Source: Blastocatellia bacterium | Lineage (GTDB): Bacteria > Acidobacteriota > Blastocatellia > Chloracidobacteriales > Chloracidobacteriaceae | Direction: 5' to 3' | NCBI GenBank assembly: GCA_019695185.1 | Contig: JAIBAN010000001.1 | Span: forward strand, 124,001 to 188,000 | DNA: 64,000 nt | Shown: positions 1,071-43,999 of the stretch, piece after piece | Numbering within the stretch: position 1 is the first letter of the stretch | Layout: each line of letters begins with the position of its first letter | Notes under the pieces: generated by a model | The model's input: the letters and a program-made list of their open reading frames with translations, nothing else | What the model was told of the DNA's origin: nothing | Database searches by the model: none | Program-made: the position numbers and the translations under genes

Positions 1071-1220
1071 AGGGTCCAGGGTTCAGGGGCCAGGGTTCAG
1101 GGTTCAGGGGCCAGGGTTCAGGGTTCTCGATGACCAGGAAATTTGAAGCTCTGAATGGGTTTAATTGTCAATTGTCCATACAAAGACCCTGAACCCTGAA
1201 CCCTGAACCCTGGACCCTGA
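1071..1220. repeat. Inverted pair of AACCCTG-word arrays
   Basis: A CAGGGTT-type array (1071-1126) faces its complement, an AACCCTG array (1186-1220), around a core of about 60 bp containing TTAATTGTCAATTG. The right arm ends next to the stop codon of the MglA-like gene. Both flanking genes converge here, so the arms could fold as a transcript hairpin. A similar AATTG core sits in the element at 43653-43998. Confidence 0.9.
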
Positions 1221-10785: not shown

Positions 10786-11043
10786 ATGCGAACCAAAATT
10801 GTCAAAATCGGTAACTCGCAAGGAATCCGCATTCCCAAAGTGTTGCTTGAACAAAGCCTGATGACAGATGAAGTTGAGCTTGAGGCCCAACCCCGGCAAA
10901 TTATCATCCGGCCTGTTCGTGAAGCGCGGTTTCAATGGACTGAAGCCTTTCAGGAAATGGCTCAAAACGGGGATGATGCTTTGCTTGATGAGGGAGAGGC
11001 AAGTCAAACGGCCTGGGATCGGGAGGAATGGGACTGGGCATGA
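10786..11043 (+). CDS. MazE-type antitoxin, AbrB/SpoVT fold
   Basis: 85 residues. The N-terminal swapped-hairpin DNA-binding domain is recognisable from TKIVKIGNSQGIRIPKVLLE; the acidic C-terminal tail (ALLDEGEASQTAWDREEWDW) is the expected toxin-neutralising part. AGAGGAG precedes the ATG. The stop overlaps the toxin start as ATGA, the usual antitoxin-first arrangement. The complex probably represses its own promoter through the inverted repeat upstream. The closest type is MazE/PemI. Confidence 0.9.
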   Translation: MRTKIVKIGNSQGIRIPKVLLEQSLMTDEVELEAQPRQIIIRPVREARFQWTEAFQEMAQNGDDALLDEGEASQTAWDREEWDWA

Positions 11044-11357
11044 AACGGTTTGACATTTATCTCGTGCATCTCGACCCAACTGTTGGAAGCGAGATTCAAA
11101 AAACCAGACCCTGTGTGATTATCTCACCTGATGAAATGAACCAGTACATCCGAACCGTGATTGTGGCTCCGCTGACAACCAGCAGCAAACTCTATCCAAC
11201 GAGAGTCACGTGCGAGTTTGATGGAAAAAAAGGATTAGTGGTGTTGGACCAGATTCGAACGGTTGATAAAACACGCCTCACCCAAAAACTTGGGGCGCTG
11301 AACTCCACGACACAAGGCGAAGTTTTAACTGTCCTGGCTGAAATGTTTGCTCCTTGA
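11040..11357 (+). CDS. MazF/PemK-type endoribonuclease toxin
   Basis: 105 residues from the ATG at 11040, typical of MazF. Motifs: IYLVHLDPTVGSEIQKTRPC with the catalytic Arg in KTRP, VIISPDEMN, VAPLTTS and the conserved LDQIRTVDKTRL. The family cuts mRNA at short sequence motifs when free of antitoxin. The upstream ATG at 11028 is rejected because it is only one base from GGGAGG. The 3' end borders a truncated copy of the next operon's genes, so the pair may be a recent arrival or the edge of a deletion. Confidence 0.93.
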   Translation: MKRFDIYLVHLDPTVGSEIQKTRPCVIISPDEMNQYIRTVIVAPLTTSSKLYPTRVTCEFDGKKGLVVLDQIRTVDKTRLTQKLGALNSTTQGEVLTVLAEMFAP

Positions 11358-11426: not shown

Positions 11427-12122
11427 TCATTTCCGCAACAGATGTTCACGAGCCAGTGATTCGACCATTCGGGCATTGTGAACCCCGTAAAATGTGATTT
11501 CGGGCAGAACTCGGCTTCTATGTCTTCGAAAACAGCGCACATTTCCTGAGCCATCCTCGTTGACTGAACACTGAATGTCACTGATTGTCCCAGCCGGAAT
11601 TTGTTTGACTCGGCGGGCGGCGGACTCGGAAATCCGGAGCAGTCGTTTATTGGTAATCGCGTAGATAATTTTTTCCGCTGCAAATCCCTCGAAAGCCGGG
11701 GCAATCATTTTGCCGCAGAAAATTCCGACCCAGAGGGAAACACCCACAAATACCGGAAACCCCTTTCGAAAGAGAAAGAACAAGGAAATAAAACCGGCAA
11801 ACAGCAACATTCCCAAAATGGCAATGCTGAGGCGTTTGGTTTTATGTGCATCGGCCACAAAGGGCTGGCTGACCCACAACACCTGTTCATGTTCGTCAAG
11901 CTGATGGCGCAATTCATTTCTGAGCCTTTCAGGCAATTGGCTGCTCTCAAGATGAATGCCTGCCGGGGCAATGAAAGAATTGAAAAAATCGTTTGGAAGC
12001 GTCTGGCACCGGCTGCAAATGCCTGTTTGTGGGTTGAACCGGTCGGTCTGGTGGCAGACTTCACAGCGTTCGGGACGGCCTTCGCTGCGAATGTGGAAAC
12101 CGGGTTTTACTGAGGTGGTCAT
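11427..12122 (-). CDS. Zinc-ribbon membrane protein with bacterial PH-like domain (paralogue 1)
   Basis: 231 residues. An N-terminal zinc ribbon has Cys at 20, 23, 36 and 39 (ERCEVCHQ...GICSRCQ). Next comes a segment ending in EHEQVLWVSQPF, two adjacent transmembrane helices (LSIAILGMLLFAGFISLFFL and the following FPVFVGVSLWVGIFCG) and a C-terminal part with YAITNKRLLRI, the signature of bacterial PH-like domains. The zinc ribbon should face the cytoplasm. One of three tandem paralogues in an operon. No function is known to me; membrane-associated binding or stress sensing are guesses. Confidence 0.75.
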   Translation of the reverse strand: MTTSVKPGFHIRSEGRPERCEVCHQTDRFNPQTGICSRCQTLPNDFFNSFIAPAGIHLESSQLPERLRNELRHQLDEHEQVLWVSQPFVADAHKTKRLSIAILGMLLFAGFISLFFLFRKGFPVFVGVSLWVGIFCGKMIAPAFEGFAAEKIIYAITNKRLLRISESAARRVKQIPAGTISDIQCSVNEDGSGNVRCFRRHRSRVLPEITFYGVHNARMVESLAREHLLRK

Positions 12123-12123
12123 A

Positions 12124-12822
12124 TCAGATTTGCGTTTTGGGGGAGGATTTTGGCCTTAAAAGCTGGTTGTAAATTACGGAAGCAACATATTGGGGGTTGA
12201 GAAGGCCGGTAAATCTGTCACCCGTGCGGTTCAATACAACGAATCCGGCACCGTTTATAGAAGTTCCAGGTCGAATCGTATCCAGGTTTTGTTGCCAAAC
12301 CGAATGAATTTCCGGTACAGGGTTGTTTTTGACGGTTATTGCCCGAAGATTGGTAATGGCATAAAGGACTGGCTGTGGCCCCACAATGGTTCCTTTGGCA
12401 ACCCAGGCAGACACAATCAAGGCCTGACTGACCAAAAACAAGAAGGTTGTTACGTCCGTACCAAGAGTTGGTTCTGCCGAGAAATCGAAGCCCAAATACA
12501 GCAAAACTCCAAACAAGCCTATCAAAAACCGTTTTTGTTTGGCCAGCGAGGAAAAGGTGTAAGCACGCCCGACCCACAACAGTCGCTCATCACCTGTCAA
12601 AGATTGCTCCAACATCAGTTTTAACTCAGGTGGAAAATCCAGGTTCAACAAATGCAGATTTCGAAGCTTTTGGGCTTCGGGAGCAAGCGGCACCAAAACT
12701 TTCTGGCATCGCCCGCAAACACCTGTTTGCTGGTCAAACTGGTCGGTTTGATGGCAGATTTCACAACGTTCAGGAAACCCTTGGCTGCGGATGCGGAAAC
12801 TGGAATTTACGGATTCAGTCAT
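12124..12822 (-). CDS. Zinc-ribbon membrane protein with bacterial PH-like domain (paralogue 2)
   Basis: 232 residues, same layout as its neighbours: zinc-ribbon Cys at 20, 23, 36 and 39, a GDERLLWVGRAY motif, two transmembrane helices (FLIGLFGVLLYLGFDF and TTFLFLVSQALIVSAWV) and YAITNLRAITV in the PH-like part. Outside the zinc ribbon and the YAxTNxR core the three copies are well diverged, so this is an old duplication. The stop lies one base before the next start, and the gene overlaps the preceding paralogue by four bases, so the operon is tightly coupled. Confidence 0.75.
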   Translation of the reverse strand: MTESVNSSFRIRSQGFPERCEICHQTDQFDQQTGVCGRCQKVLVPLAPEAQKLRNLHLLNLDFPPELKLMLEQSLTGDERLLWVGRAYTFSSLAKQKRFLIGLFGVLLYLGFDFSAEPTLGTDVTTFLFLVSQALIVSAWVAKGTIVGPQPVLYAITNLRAITVKNNPVPEIHSVWQQNLDTIRPGTSINGAGFVVLNRTGDRFTGLLNPQYVASVIYNQLLRPKSSPKTQI

Positions 12823-13508
12823 TGGGGTAACTCACTTCCGGGTAGAAGATGTTCACACACCAGACGCTTCACCTGTTCATGGTCATCAATACCAAAAAAA
12901 CCAAACCTTTTGGAATGCCTTTTGGTTTCAGGATTTTGAAAAATCAAGTCACCGCTCCCGTCTTCATTAAGGACGTGCCGGATGGAGTGCAGGGTTTCCA
13001 GTGTCTGGCAGGTGGTCCGGGTTTTCCAGACATCTTCAATGACCACCAACCGCTGATTGGTGACAGCGTAAACGGTATGCCGGGCTTTTTCCCAATCCCG
13101 CAGGGAGCTTCCTACCCAGTGGGCAACAAAAAACAACAGAAAGATGAACAATGGCAAAAGCGTCTCGTGCCGAACCTCTGCGAATCCCCACGAGAGAACC
13201 AGCACCATCGTCAGGATGGCGTTGATTCCCATATATTTCCAGGTTCGGCGGGAAATCCGATGCGGATTGGGCGTTCCAACCCAGAGCAACCATTCGTCTT
13301 CCGCGAGTTCTTCGGTTAAAACCTGCCGAAACTGTTCCGGAACCGCCACCTGTCGGGGATTGAGCAGTAACCGGGAGTCGTCCTGATAATTGCAGCGGTC
13401 ACATCTGCCGGTTTGGGGGTCAAACCGGTCTTTTTGGTGACAGACCTCGCAGCGTTCGGGAACCCCTTGGCTGCGGATGCGGAAACTGTGATTGACCGAA
13501 GAAGTCAT
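12819..13508 (-). CDS. Zinc-ribbon membrane protein with bacterial PH-like domain (paralogue 3)
   Basis: 229 residues with the same Cys spacing (20, 23, 36, 39), EDEWLLWVGTPNPH, two transmembrane helices (MGINAILTMVLVLSWGF and LLPLFIFLLFFVAHWVG) and YAVTNQRLVVI. The C-terminal part adds NPETKRHSKRFGFFGIDDHE. It overlaps the upstream membrane gene by four bases (ATGA) and the downstream paralogue by four, so all are probably made together and may form a hetero-oligomer. Confidence 0.75.
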   Translation of the reverse strand: MTSSVNHSFRIRSQGVPERCEVCHQKDRFDPQTGRCDRCNYQDDSRLLLNPRQVAVPEQFRQVLTEELAEDEWLLWVGTPNPHRISRRTWKYMGINAILTMVLVLSWGFAEVRHETLLPLFIFLLFFVAHWVGSSLRDWEKARHTVYAVTNQRLVVIEDVWKTRTTCQTLETLHSIRHVLNEDGSGDLIFQNPETKRHSKRFGFFGIDDHEQVKRLVCEHLLPGSELPQ

Positions 13509-14026
13509 GTCGTTTTCGAGCCTTGAAGGTCGAGTTTTGTGGGCAATGGTGTTTTCGCGGAACCGAGCCAGCGTTTCAGGTGTGGCAGAGTCCTTTGGCT
13601 TATAACCTGCAACAACGTGGCCAGGGCAAAGGTAAAAATAATGACGGCAAGAACCTGCTCAAACATCCTGAGCTTTTCCAGGGTGCTTCCCGAAAAGTAT
13701 TCGGCTGCGGTTTGTGGTTCCTCCAGCAGAAAACAAAGATTCCGATACCCATTCAAAACCCCTGCGCCGCTCACCAGAACTGCATAGCCCAATGCCAGCA
13801 GGTTCCGGGAACAGACGGCAATCGCTGCCCAGGCAAGGTACCAGGTACTGGTGCCCGGAGCCGGACAGGCGAACAATTTCATGCCTGCCATTTCAAGCTC
13901 GGTTAAGTGTTGTTGCCATAAAAACGAGATGGAAACAAAGGTAAACACCGTCAATCCGACCACAATCACTTTCGGGTGAACATAACGCCCCATGATGTGC
14001 AGTTTGCTTTGGTTCCGGTTGTTCAT
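13505..14026 (-). CDS. Multi-pass membrane protein heading the zinc-ribbon operon
   Basis: 173 residues from the ATG at 14026. Four hydrophobic segments are visible: VIVVGLTVFTFVSISFLW, WYLAWAAIAVCSRNLLALG (with YAVLVSGAGVLNG), and a last long one in QVLAVIIFTFALATLLQV. The second loop contains CPAPGTSTW. No family is recognised; the layout vaguely resembles DUF2975-like proteins. Its stop overlaps the first zinc-ribbon paralogue as ATGA, which ties it to that unit. The start could also be 14047 or 13993; 14026 has GGAGGG upstream. Confidence 0.65.
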   Translation of the reverse strand: MNNRNQSKLHIMGRYVHPKVIVVGLTVFTFVSISFLWQQHLTELEMAGMKLFACPAPGTSTWYLAWAAIAVCSRNLLALGYAVLVSGAGVLNGYRNLCFLLEEPQTAAEYFSGSTLEKLRMFEQVLAVIIFTFALATLLQVISQRTLPHLKRWLGSAKTPLPTKLDLQGSKTT

Positions 14027-14094
14027 AAAGAAATTAAGACCCTCCATTTGACAAAAGTATTTTACTCTTCCAAAAAAGGGCCGTCATTCGAAAT

Positions 14095-43652: not shown

Positions 43653-43998
43653 CAGGGTCCAGGGTTCAGGGTCTAGGGTCTAGGGTCCAGGGGCTTTTTA
43701 ATTGAGAATTGAGAATTGAGAATTGACAATTAAAACCCATCCGGAACATCAAATTTTCTGGTATTCGAAAACCCTGGACCCTGAACCCTGAACCCTGGAC
43801 CCTGAACCCTGAATCCTGAACCCTGAACCCTGGACCCTGAACCCTGAACCCTAGACCCTGAACCCTGGACCCTGAACCCTCAACCCTGAACCCTGAACCC
43901 TGAACCATGAACCCTGAACCCTGAACCCTGAACCCTGAACCCTGAACCCTGAACCCTGAACCCTGAACCCTGAACCCTGAACCCTGAACCCTGAACCC
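43653..43998. repeat. Long AACCCTG-word element with nested GAGAATT copies
   Basis: A forward CAGGGTT/TAGGGTC arm (43653-43692), a nested ATTGAGA array with GACAATTAAAACCC (43700-43737), then about thirty copies of AACCCTG (43770-43998). The right arm ends directly at the ATG of the GT9 gene. It is the longest such array in the window. Any ORF read across it is made only of repeated heptapeptides. Confidence 0.95.
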
Positions 43999-43999
43999 T

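Follow-up and report, generated by a model that had tools for sequence, protein, structure and literature searches.

A zinc-ribbon module from a coupled membrane-gene cluster recurs across an order of Blastocatellia and adjoins its ubiquitin-like gene

A run of tightly coupled membrane genes of unfamiliar composition raises the question of whether the operon, or some part that its products share, is the proper unit of interest. The window analysed here is a stretch of 64,000 nucleotides from a Blastocatellia bacterium, in which a first-pass annotation had pointed out three related zinc-ribbon proteins following a multi-pass membrane gene. The coupled set comprises four genes, all on the minus strand, at 14047-11427 of the window, and is followed by the remnant of a further gene:

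13505..14047, minus strand: first gene of the set, a 180-aa membrane protein with about three TM segments and without a zinc ribbon (ORF list)
12819..13508, minus strand: paralogue 1, 229 aa, with zinc ribbon, TM hairpin and PH-like part (ORF list, AlphaFold2, Foldseek)
13389..13484, minus strand: ribbon module of paralogue 1 (FRIRSQGVPERCEVCHQKDRFDPQTGRCDRCN)
12124..12822, minus strand: paralogue 2, 232 aa, with zinc ribbon, two TM segments and PH-like part (ORF list, sequence comparison)
12703..12798, minus strand: ribbon module of paralogue 2
11427..12122, minus strand: paralogue 3, 231 aa, with zinc ribbon, two TM segments and PH-like part (ORF list, sequence comparison)
12003..12098, minus strand: ribbon module of paralogue 3
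11417..~11358, minus strand: truncated beginning of a fourth ribbon gene (MNNTLKPGFHIRSEG...), which ends before the Cys pairs

Our analysis confirmed the first-pass observation of the cluster. Two ATGA overlaps of 4 bases and one 1-base gap couple the four genes, and the paralogues share an identical cysteine spacing (C-x2-C-x12-C-x2-C), two hydrophobic segments each and the reported YAxTNxR core in the form YA[VI]TNxR. They have diverged, as stated; we measured 33-35% identity among the three. The multi-pass gene ahead of them is likewise real, with about three TM segments, and the cluster end placed at 14026 had to be corrected because it falls inside that gene, which has no relative in any locus compared. 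The composition does match no described system, in that no Pfam or NCBIfam model reached its cut-off with the four proteins and PADLOC returned nothing for two proteins. The further proposal of a self-contained operon specifying one membrane complex is unsupported: versions with a bacterial PH-like (bPH) part occur at three further loci of the same genome, and the ribbon occurs on some 34 other proteins. Unlinked copies had been named beforehand as the finding that would speak against linkage of these genes, and these further loci supply them. The operon is the wrong unit of interest; the ribbon is a genome-wide tag that the first reading overlooked, as it did the link to a ubiquitin-like (Ubl) locus.

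Downstream of paralogue 3, the fourth ribbon-gene remnant breaks just ahead of a mazF stop. A mazEF-like pair occupies window positions 10786-11357 on the plus strand, and the 3' end of its toxin gene abuts the truncated ribbon-gene start, as if the ribbon cluster had been cut by the pair's insertion or deletion.

Searching the source genome with paralogue 3 returned 45 places, most of them alike only over the N-terminal ~40 residues, and a profile of this stretch identified 42 strong copies before the matches fell to noise. The module spans 38 residues, R-C-[ED]-[IV]-C-H-Q-x-D…C-x-R-C, and both of these motif halves are kept in 42/42 copies. It lies within the first 40 residues in 41 of them and is C-terminal in the remaining one. 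The proteins that carry it range from 63 to 613 residues and are otherwise unrelated, mostly membrane proteins: bPH-like, ankyrin with TM, pilin-like, multi-TM and ribbon-only. Pfam, applied to 40 ribbon proteins, recognised ankyrin repeats alone, in 5 of them. Among 137 copies from several genomes the four Cys were retained in 136-137, the H in 137, the D in 136 and both R in 133-134; the module contains no conserved lysine. We regard it as nearly certain that the ribbon is a module. At six loci (L030, L018, L014, L069, L087 and L088) it stands ahead of pilin-like proteins with a common C-terminal ending like 'DCFYLDETGVIRHSG'.

The density of K+R in 98 proteins with N-terminal ribbons was 0.136 before the first TM segment vs 0.077 after it (Wilcoxon p 3.6e-5), a positive-inside asymmetry from which the ribbon statistically faces the cytosol. 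Binding of heme c at the CXXCH sequence was considered and rejected, since the positive-inside asymmetry places the module in the cytosol and no hydrophobic signal precedes it. When homologous pairs within a genome were compared, ribbon identity averaged 0.67 vs 0.31 for the rest of the protein, with the ribbon the more conserved part in 107 of 110 pairs; in the 30 closest pairs the module had a pS of 0.53 and a pN of 0.12. These values indicate that purifying selection maintains the ribbon and that the attached parts drift fast. The 131 attached parts fell into 84 clusters; between the two genomes with >40 ribbon copies there were only three reciprocal pairs.

For the window's paralogues, the attached part is PH-like. 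An AlphaFold2 model of paralogue 1 (alignment of 9 sequences, pLDDT 83.6) predicts a ribbon, then two long helices forming a TM hairpin, then six strands and a helix. The best solved matches of this model in Foldseek were bacterial PH domains, 3dcx (E 5.8e-4, prob 1.0) and 3hsa, so that paralogue 1 is predicted to have a bacterial PH fold. The DUF1696 structure 3dcx and the PuhB family NF040894 resemble it in this fold with weak sequence similarity, but in the window's proteins the PH-like part is preceded by an N-terminal ribbon and a TM hairpin. An assignment as the PuhB photosynthetic assembly factor was rejected because the NF040894 match (E 7e-11), at 42.3 bits at best, is far below the curated cut-off of 110 bits. 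The PH-like ribbon version occurs at four loci in the source genome and once in one relative. At one of the loci (L009, on contig 78 of genome G000) a ribbon-less bPH paralogue adjoins a ribbon-bearing one, and this natural plus/minus pair indicates that the module is detachable.

We found the ribbon in 14/14 genomes of the order (Blastocatellia, probably Chloracidobacteriales), at 2-46 copies: 42, 46, 38, 17, 16, 12 and 4-5 in individual genomes, while seven genomes belonging to one genus, probably Chloracidobacterium, have exactly 2 apiece. In a sample of 396 genomes from the phylum, clear matches were restricted to the seven members of the order. The 389 other genomes held no convincing ribbon apart from one diverged look-alike, two further matches being broken frames. 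The look-alike (L221, genome G310) belongs to another order, reads CPVCHRSD...CLRC (E 1.9e-6) near the start of a two-TM protein, and comes from a genome in which no Ubl was found. A pattern scan of 84,980 species placed the module at 38 confirmed loci, all in MAGs of Acidobacteria/Blastocatellia; one of these is labelled Actinomycetota, but its scaffolds are named WN_Acidobacteria. The same wide contig scan with a full paralogue as query gave no match. Ubl and E2 genes were present, single-copy, in 14/14 genomes of the order and in 0/25 genomes from other orders of the class, so that ribbon, Ubl and E2 are exactly co-distributed.

One ribbon protein is common to all 14 genomes. This core copy, ~100 residues long, crosses the membrane once, with an N-terminal TM helix, and ends in the ribbon; its basic residues lie after the helix, so that here too the ribbon is placed on the cytosolic side. 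Genes for E1, the ribbon protein and Ubl are contiguous in that order on one strand in 13/14 genomes, and in the 14th ribbon and Ubl are adjacent and the contig ends before E1. It is the only ribbon in a conserved setting and is retained in the two-copy genomes. The full set E1-ribbon-Ubl-E2-JAB is found at one locus (L206) with no gap of more than about 180 bases and at another (L212) with one gene inserted, while the source genome has the set split between contig 34 (E1-ribbon-Ubl) and contig 82 (E2-JAB).

The assignment of these genes draws on several matches. E1 is of the ThiF family (PF00899 at E 4e-50, 8e-53 and 3.5e-47) with a GAGALG motif. E2 matched UQ_con under the cut-off (E 2e-4 to 1e-3), homologous outgroup E2s (30-37%) scoring above it, and its active-site region HPHVWPDGK[IV]C was recovered by pattern in 13/14 genomes, with the 14th unmatched by pattern. 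Ubl is a single domain of about 80 residues, above the Rad60-SLD cut-off in 2/3 tested copies; its end reads IFLNTRGG (NTRGG in 14/14), three genomes stopping exactly there and the others continuing for +1 to about 20 residues. A JAMM peptidase is encoded in 14/14 genomes (PF14464, a distinct part of the Prok-JAB profile), often adjoining E2, with its motif HTHPGFGVFMSGTD intact in the 7 sequences read and PF01398 matching at E 1.8e-9. The PADLOC E1-E2 and JAB models matched the core-locus proteins weakly. Judged by sequence, the core locus thus appears to hold the E1, UBC-type E2, diglycine Ubl and JAMM of a prokaryotic E1-E2-Ubl-JAB conjugation system, and the core ribbon copy very probably acts with it.

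Ahead of the first Cys, the module carries a strand, [FL]-x-[IV]-[KR]-x-[EQ]. A matrix of the strand alone ranked the C-terminal tail of E2 (FVIKRV) and residue 3 of JAB (FVIKKV) within its top ~0.01-0.02%; the protein-level chance is 0.01-0.03 for each, the likeness having been noticed first and the test being post hoc. A top-0.1% match within the first eight residues occurred in 5/375 control proteins. In E1 the strand is weak and confined to some genomes, and most outgroup E2 and JAB proteins lack it. These matches are suggestive, and the strand may offer a lead to a SIM-like Ubl- or partner-binding element.

The E2 has scattered relatives (30-37%) in other parts of the phylum, in loci of the form E1-Ubl-E2-JAB or E2-JAB with a Prok-RING_1/TM2 protein. 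The E2-bearing Acidobacteriota genomes outside the order have no ribbon module, so the ribbon is not required for such conjugation systems and, given the makeup of those loci, seems to have been added, in this order alone, to a system of an older kind. In one outgroup locus (L219:3460-7392) a JAB with TM, an FHA-like TM protein, a Prok-RING_1 protein with TM2, a GYF-like membrane protein and E2 form one run, a membrane-bound RING/E2/JAB cluster. Its Prok-RING_1 + TM2 protein resembles the core ribbon protein as a membrane-anchored zinc finger in a bacterial E2/JAB locus, but is a true Prok-RING_1 match in a genome without the ribbon module. Another (L216:5265-7728) is a compact E1-Ubl-E2-JAB operon near what, by eye, are apparent type VI secretion genes.

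Known zinc modules did not account for the ribbon. RING and Prok-RING E3s have two zinc sites with eight ligands in a cross-brace; the four Cys of the ribbon can bind a single zinc only, which excludes it as a RING. Among the matches listed for 33 module copies there was no RING or Prok-RING family and one chance-level FYVE/PHD-type match (E 0.027), and Foldseek found no counterpart of the ribbon fold. RING and A20-type ubiquitin fingers were rejected, the resemblance being one of the knuckle with no sequence or fold match. MJ0042 (TIGR02098) and Zn_Ribbon_1 are small N-terminal ribbons that recur on unrelated proteins within one genome. The present ribbon shares that genome-wide N-terminal recurrence but differs in spacing, and the four window proteins matched neither model. 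MJ0042 fingers have the spacing C-x2-C-x19-C-x2-C, and an MJ0042 finger was rejected on this ground and because TIGR02098 did not match the window proteins. We know of no Ubl-locus link for such tags.

The conjugation parts, by comparison, are of a known kind. In a reconstituted archaeal cascade, the tail of the Ubl is cut back by JAMM, activation falls to E1 and carriage to E2, and transfer is completed by a small zinc protein (PMC5654768). The operon concerned, E1/E2/srfp(RING)/ubiquitin/Rpn11 of Caldiarchaeum subterraneum, is similarly compact, with an E1-like and an E2-like protein, JAMM, a small zinc protein and a Ubl tail past the diglycine (PMC5654768). There the zinc protein is a RING-H2 with shown E3 activity (PMC5654768), whereas the present order has a four-Cys ribbon tethered to the membrane, in 2-46 copies per genome. 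The E1/E2/Ubl/JAB operons described from bacteria (Iyer 2006, PMC1779556; BilABCD as summarised in PMC11354881) share the ThiF-type E1, UBC-type E2, Ubl and JAB; the present system differs in having one copy of each in every genome of the order, a single-domain Ubl, separate E1 and E2 and the extra ribbon protein. Our search of the open-access literature found no ubiquitin-like system described for Chloracidobacterium and no description of the ribbon family or of its coupling to a Ubl locus.

The explanation that we favour, though tentatively, is that the ribbon is the cytosolic docking module of an order-specific Ubl system and that the further ribbon proteins are its membrane adaptors. The ribbon, with its preceding F/L-x-I/V-K/R-x-E strand, would be the docking module for conjugation by a set that, per genome, would consist of a single E1, a single UBC-type E2, a single Ubl with a mature RGG end and a JAMM peptidase. 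The single-TM ribbon protein between E1 and Ubl would be a core, membrane-tethered E3-like factor, and the 1-45 further ribbon proteins per genome would be membrane-anchored adaptors, whose variable parts (PH-like, ankyrin, pilin-like, multi-TM) may select a client or a location, with the ribbon bringing E2~Ubl or Ubl to the membrane's inner face. The window trio would then be three adaptors whose PH-like heads have diverged and whose synthesis is coupled to that of an orphan membrane protein. The analysis itself establishes the module, its distribution, the core locus, the selection on the ribbon, its cytosolic side by statistics and the PH-like fold by prediction; physical recruitment by the ribbon, E3-like activity and use of the Ubl system by non-core copies, the window's included, are what we infer here. 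That non-core copies use the Ubl system seems somewhat likely; an E3-like or adaptor role for them, rather than a substrate tag, takes about two thirds of that likelihood and is accordingly a possibility short of even.

The absence of the module from E2-bearing Acidobacteriota outside the order, its one-zinc, non-RING build with no Foldseek counterpart and the weakness of the strand in E1 count against this explanation. So does the diverged look-alike, which comes from a genome that yielded no Ubl and fits a ribbon that is a general, order-specific cytosolic module for protein-protein contacts or metal/redox chemistry, with the Ubl locus as one use among others and the window genes unrelated to Ubl. 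N-terminal zinc ribbons are indeed common on bacterial membrane proteins. We nevertheless consider a general module rather unlikely, given the exact co-distribution of the ribbon with Ubl and E2 and the position of the sole universally kept copy between E1 and Ubl, even in two-copy genomes. A different role within the Ubl system would be that of a degron or sorting tag, by which bearers are recognised as substrates, tagged with Ubl, and then sorted or turned over. A constant tag beside attached parts that change fast, and the presence of ribbons on many chemically unrelated proteins, would be expected of such a mark, with the core copy as a possible anchor of the machinery. However, the module lacks a conserved lysine, and the invariant core copy between E1 and Ubl behaves as a component and not as a client, which makes the substrate tag distinctly unlikely.

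The window cluster could also be a bPH-type membrane assembly, a chaperone or scaffold like PuhB or YdbS, to which the ribbon is incidental. The PuhB-like E value, the predicted bacterial PH fold and the ribbon-less paralogue beside a ribbon-bearing one all accord with this, but the ribbon is the most conserved part of these proteins and the PuhB score falls far short (42 vs 110 bits), so that we judge such an assembly very improbable.

Bacterial ubiquitin-type systems are known as compact operons, often with a link to defence and with E3s few or absent, and many-membered families of E3-ligase-like adaptors are normally thought eukaryotic. All genomes of the present order carry a Ubl system in which a membrane-tethered ribbon partner lies between E1 and Ubl; alongside it, the ribbon domain of this partner has undergone a lineage-specific expansion. 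If the expansion is functional, the origin of E3 diversity becomes testable in a free-living bacterium. That the order independently evolved the eukaryotic pyramid, with one E1, E2 and Ubl serving up to ~45 diversifying, mostly membrane-bound E3-like adaptors built on a one-zinc, non-RING ribbon, is an idea we hold as rather doubtful. Even if the expansion is not functional, the ribbon still tags dozens of unannotated membrane proteins throughout the order, and the open-access literature yielded no description of it.

Elsewhere in the window, most tandem repeats have a 7-base period with many different units (AACCCTG, CTCAGTC, AATTGAG, AATGGCA and others). They lie at window positions 1071-1126, 1186, 1930, 9026, 9098, 10630, 14096, 16151, 16246, 29311, 29512, 42593, 43653, 43700, 43770-43999 and 51350, the array at 43770-43999 having 33 copies. 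A similar-looking repeat array is present in a relative (G003, L208).
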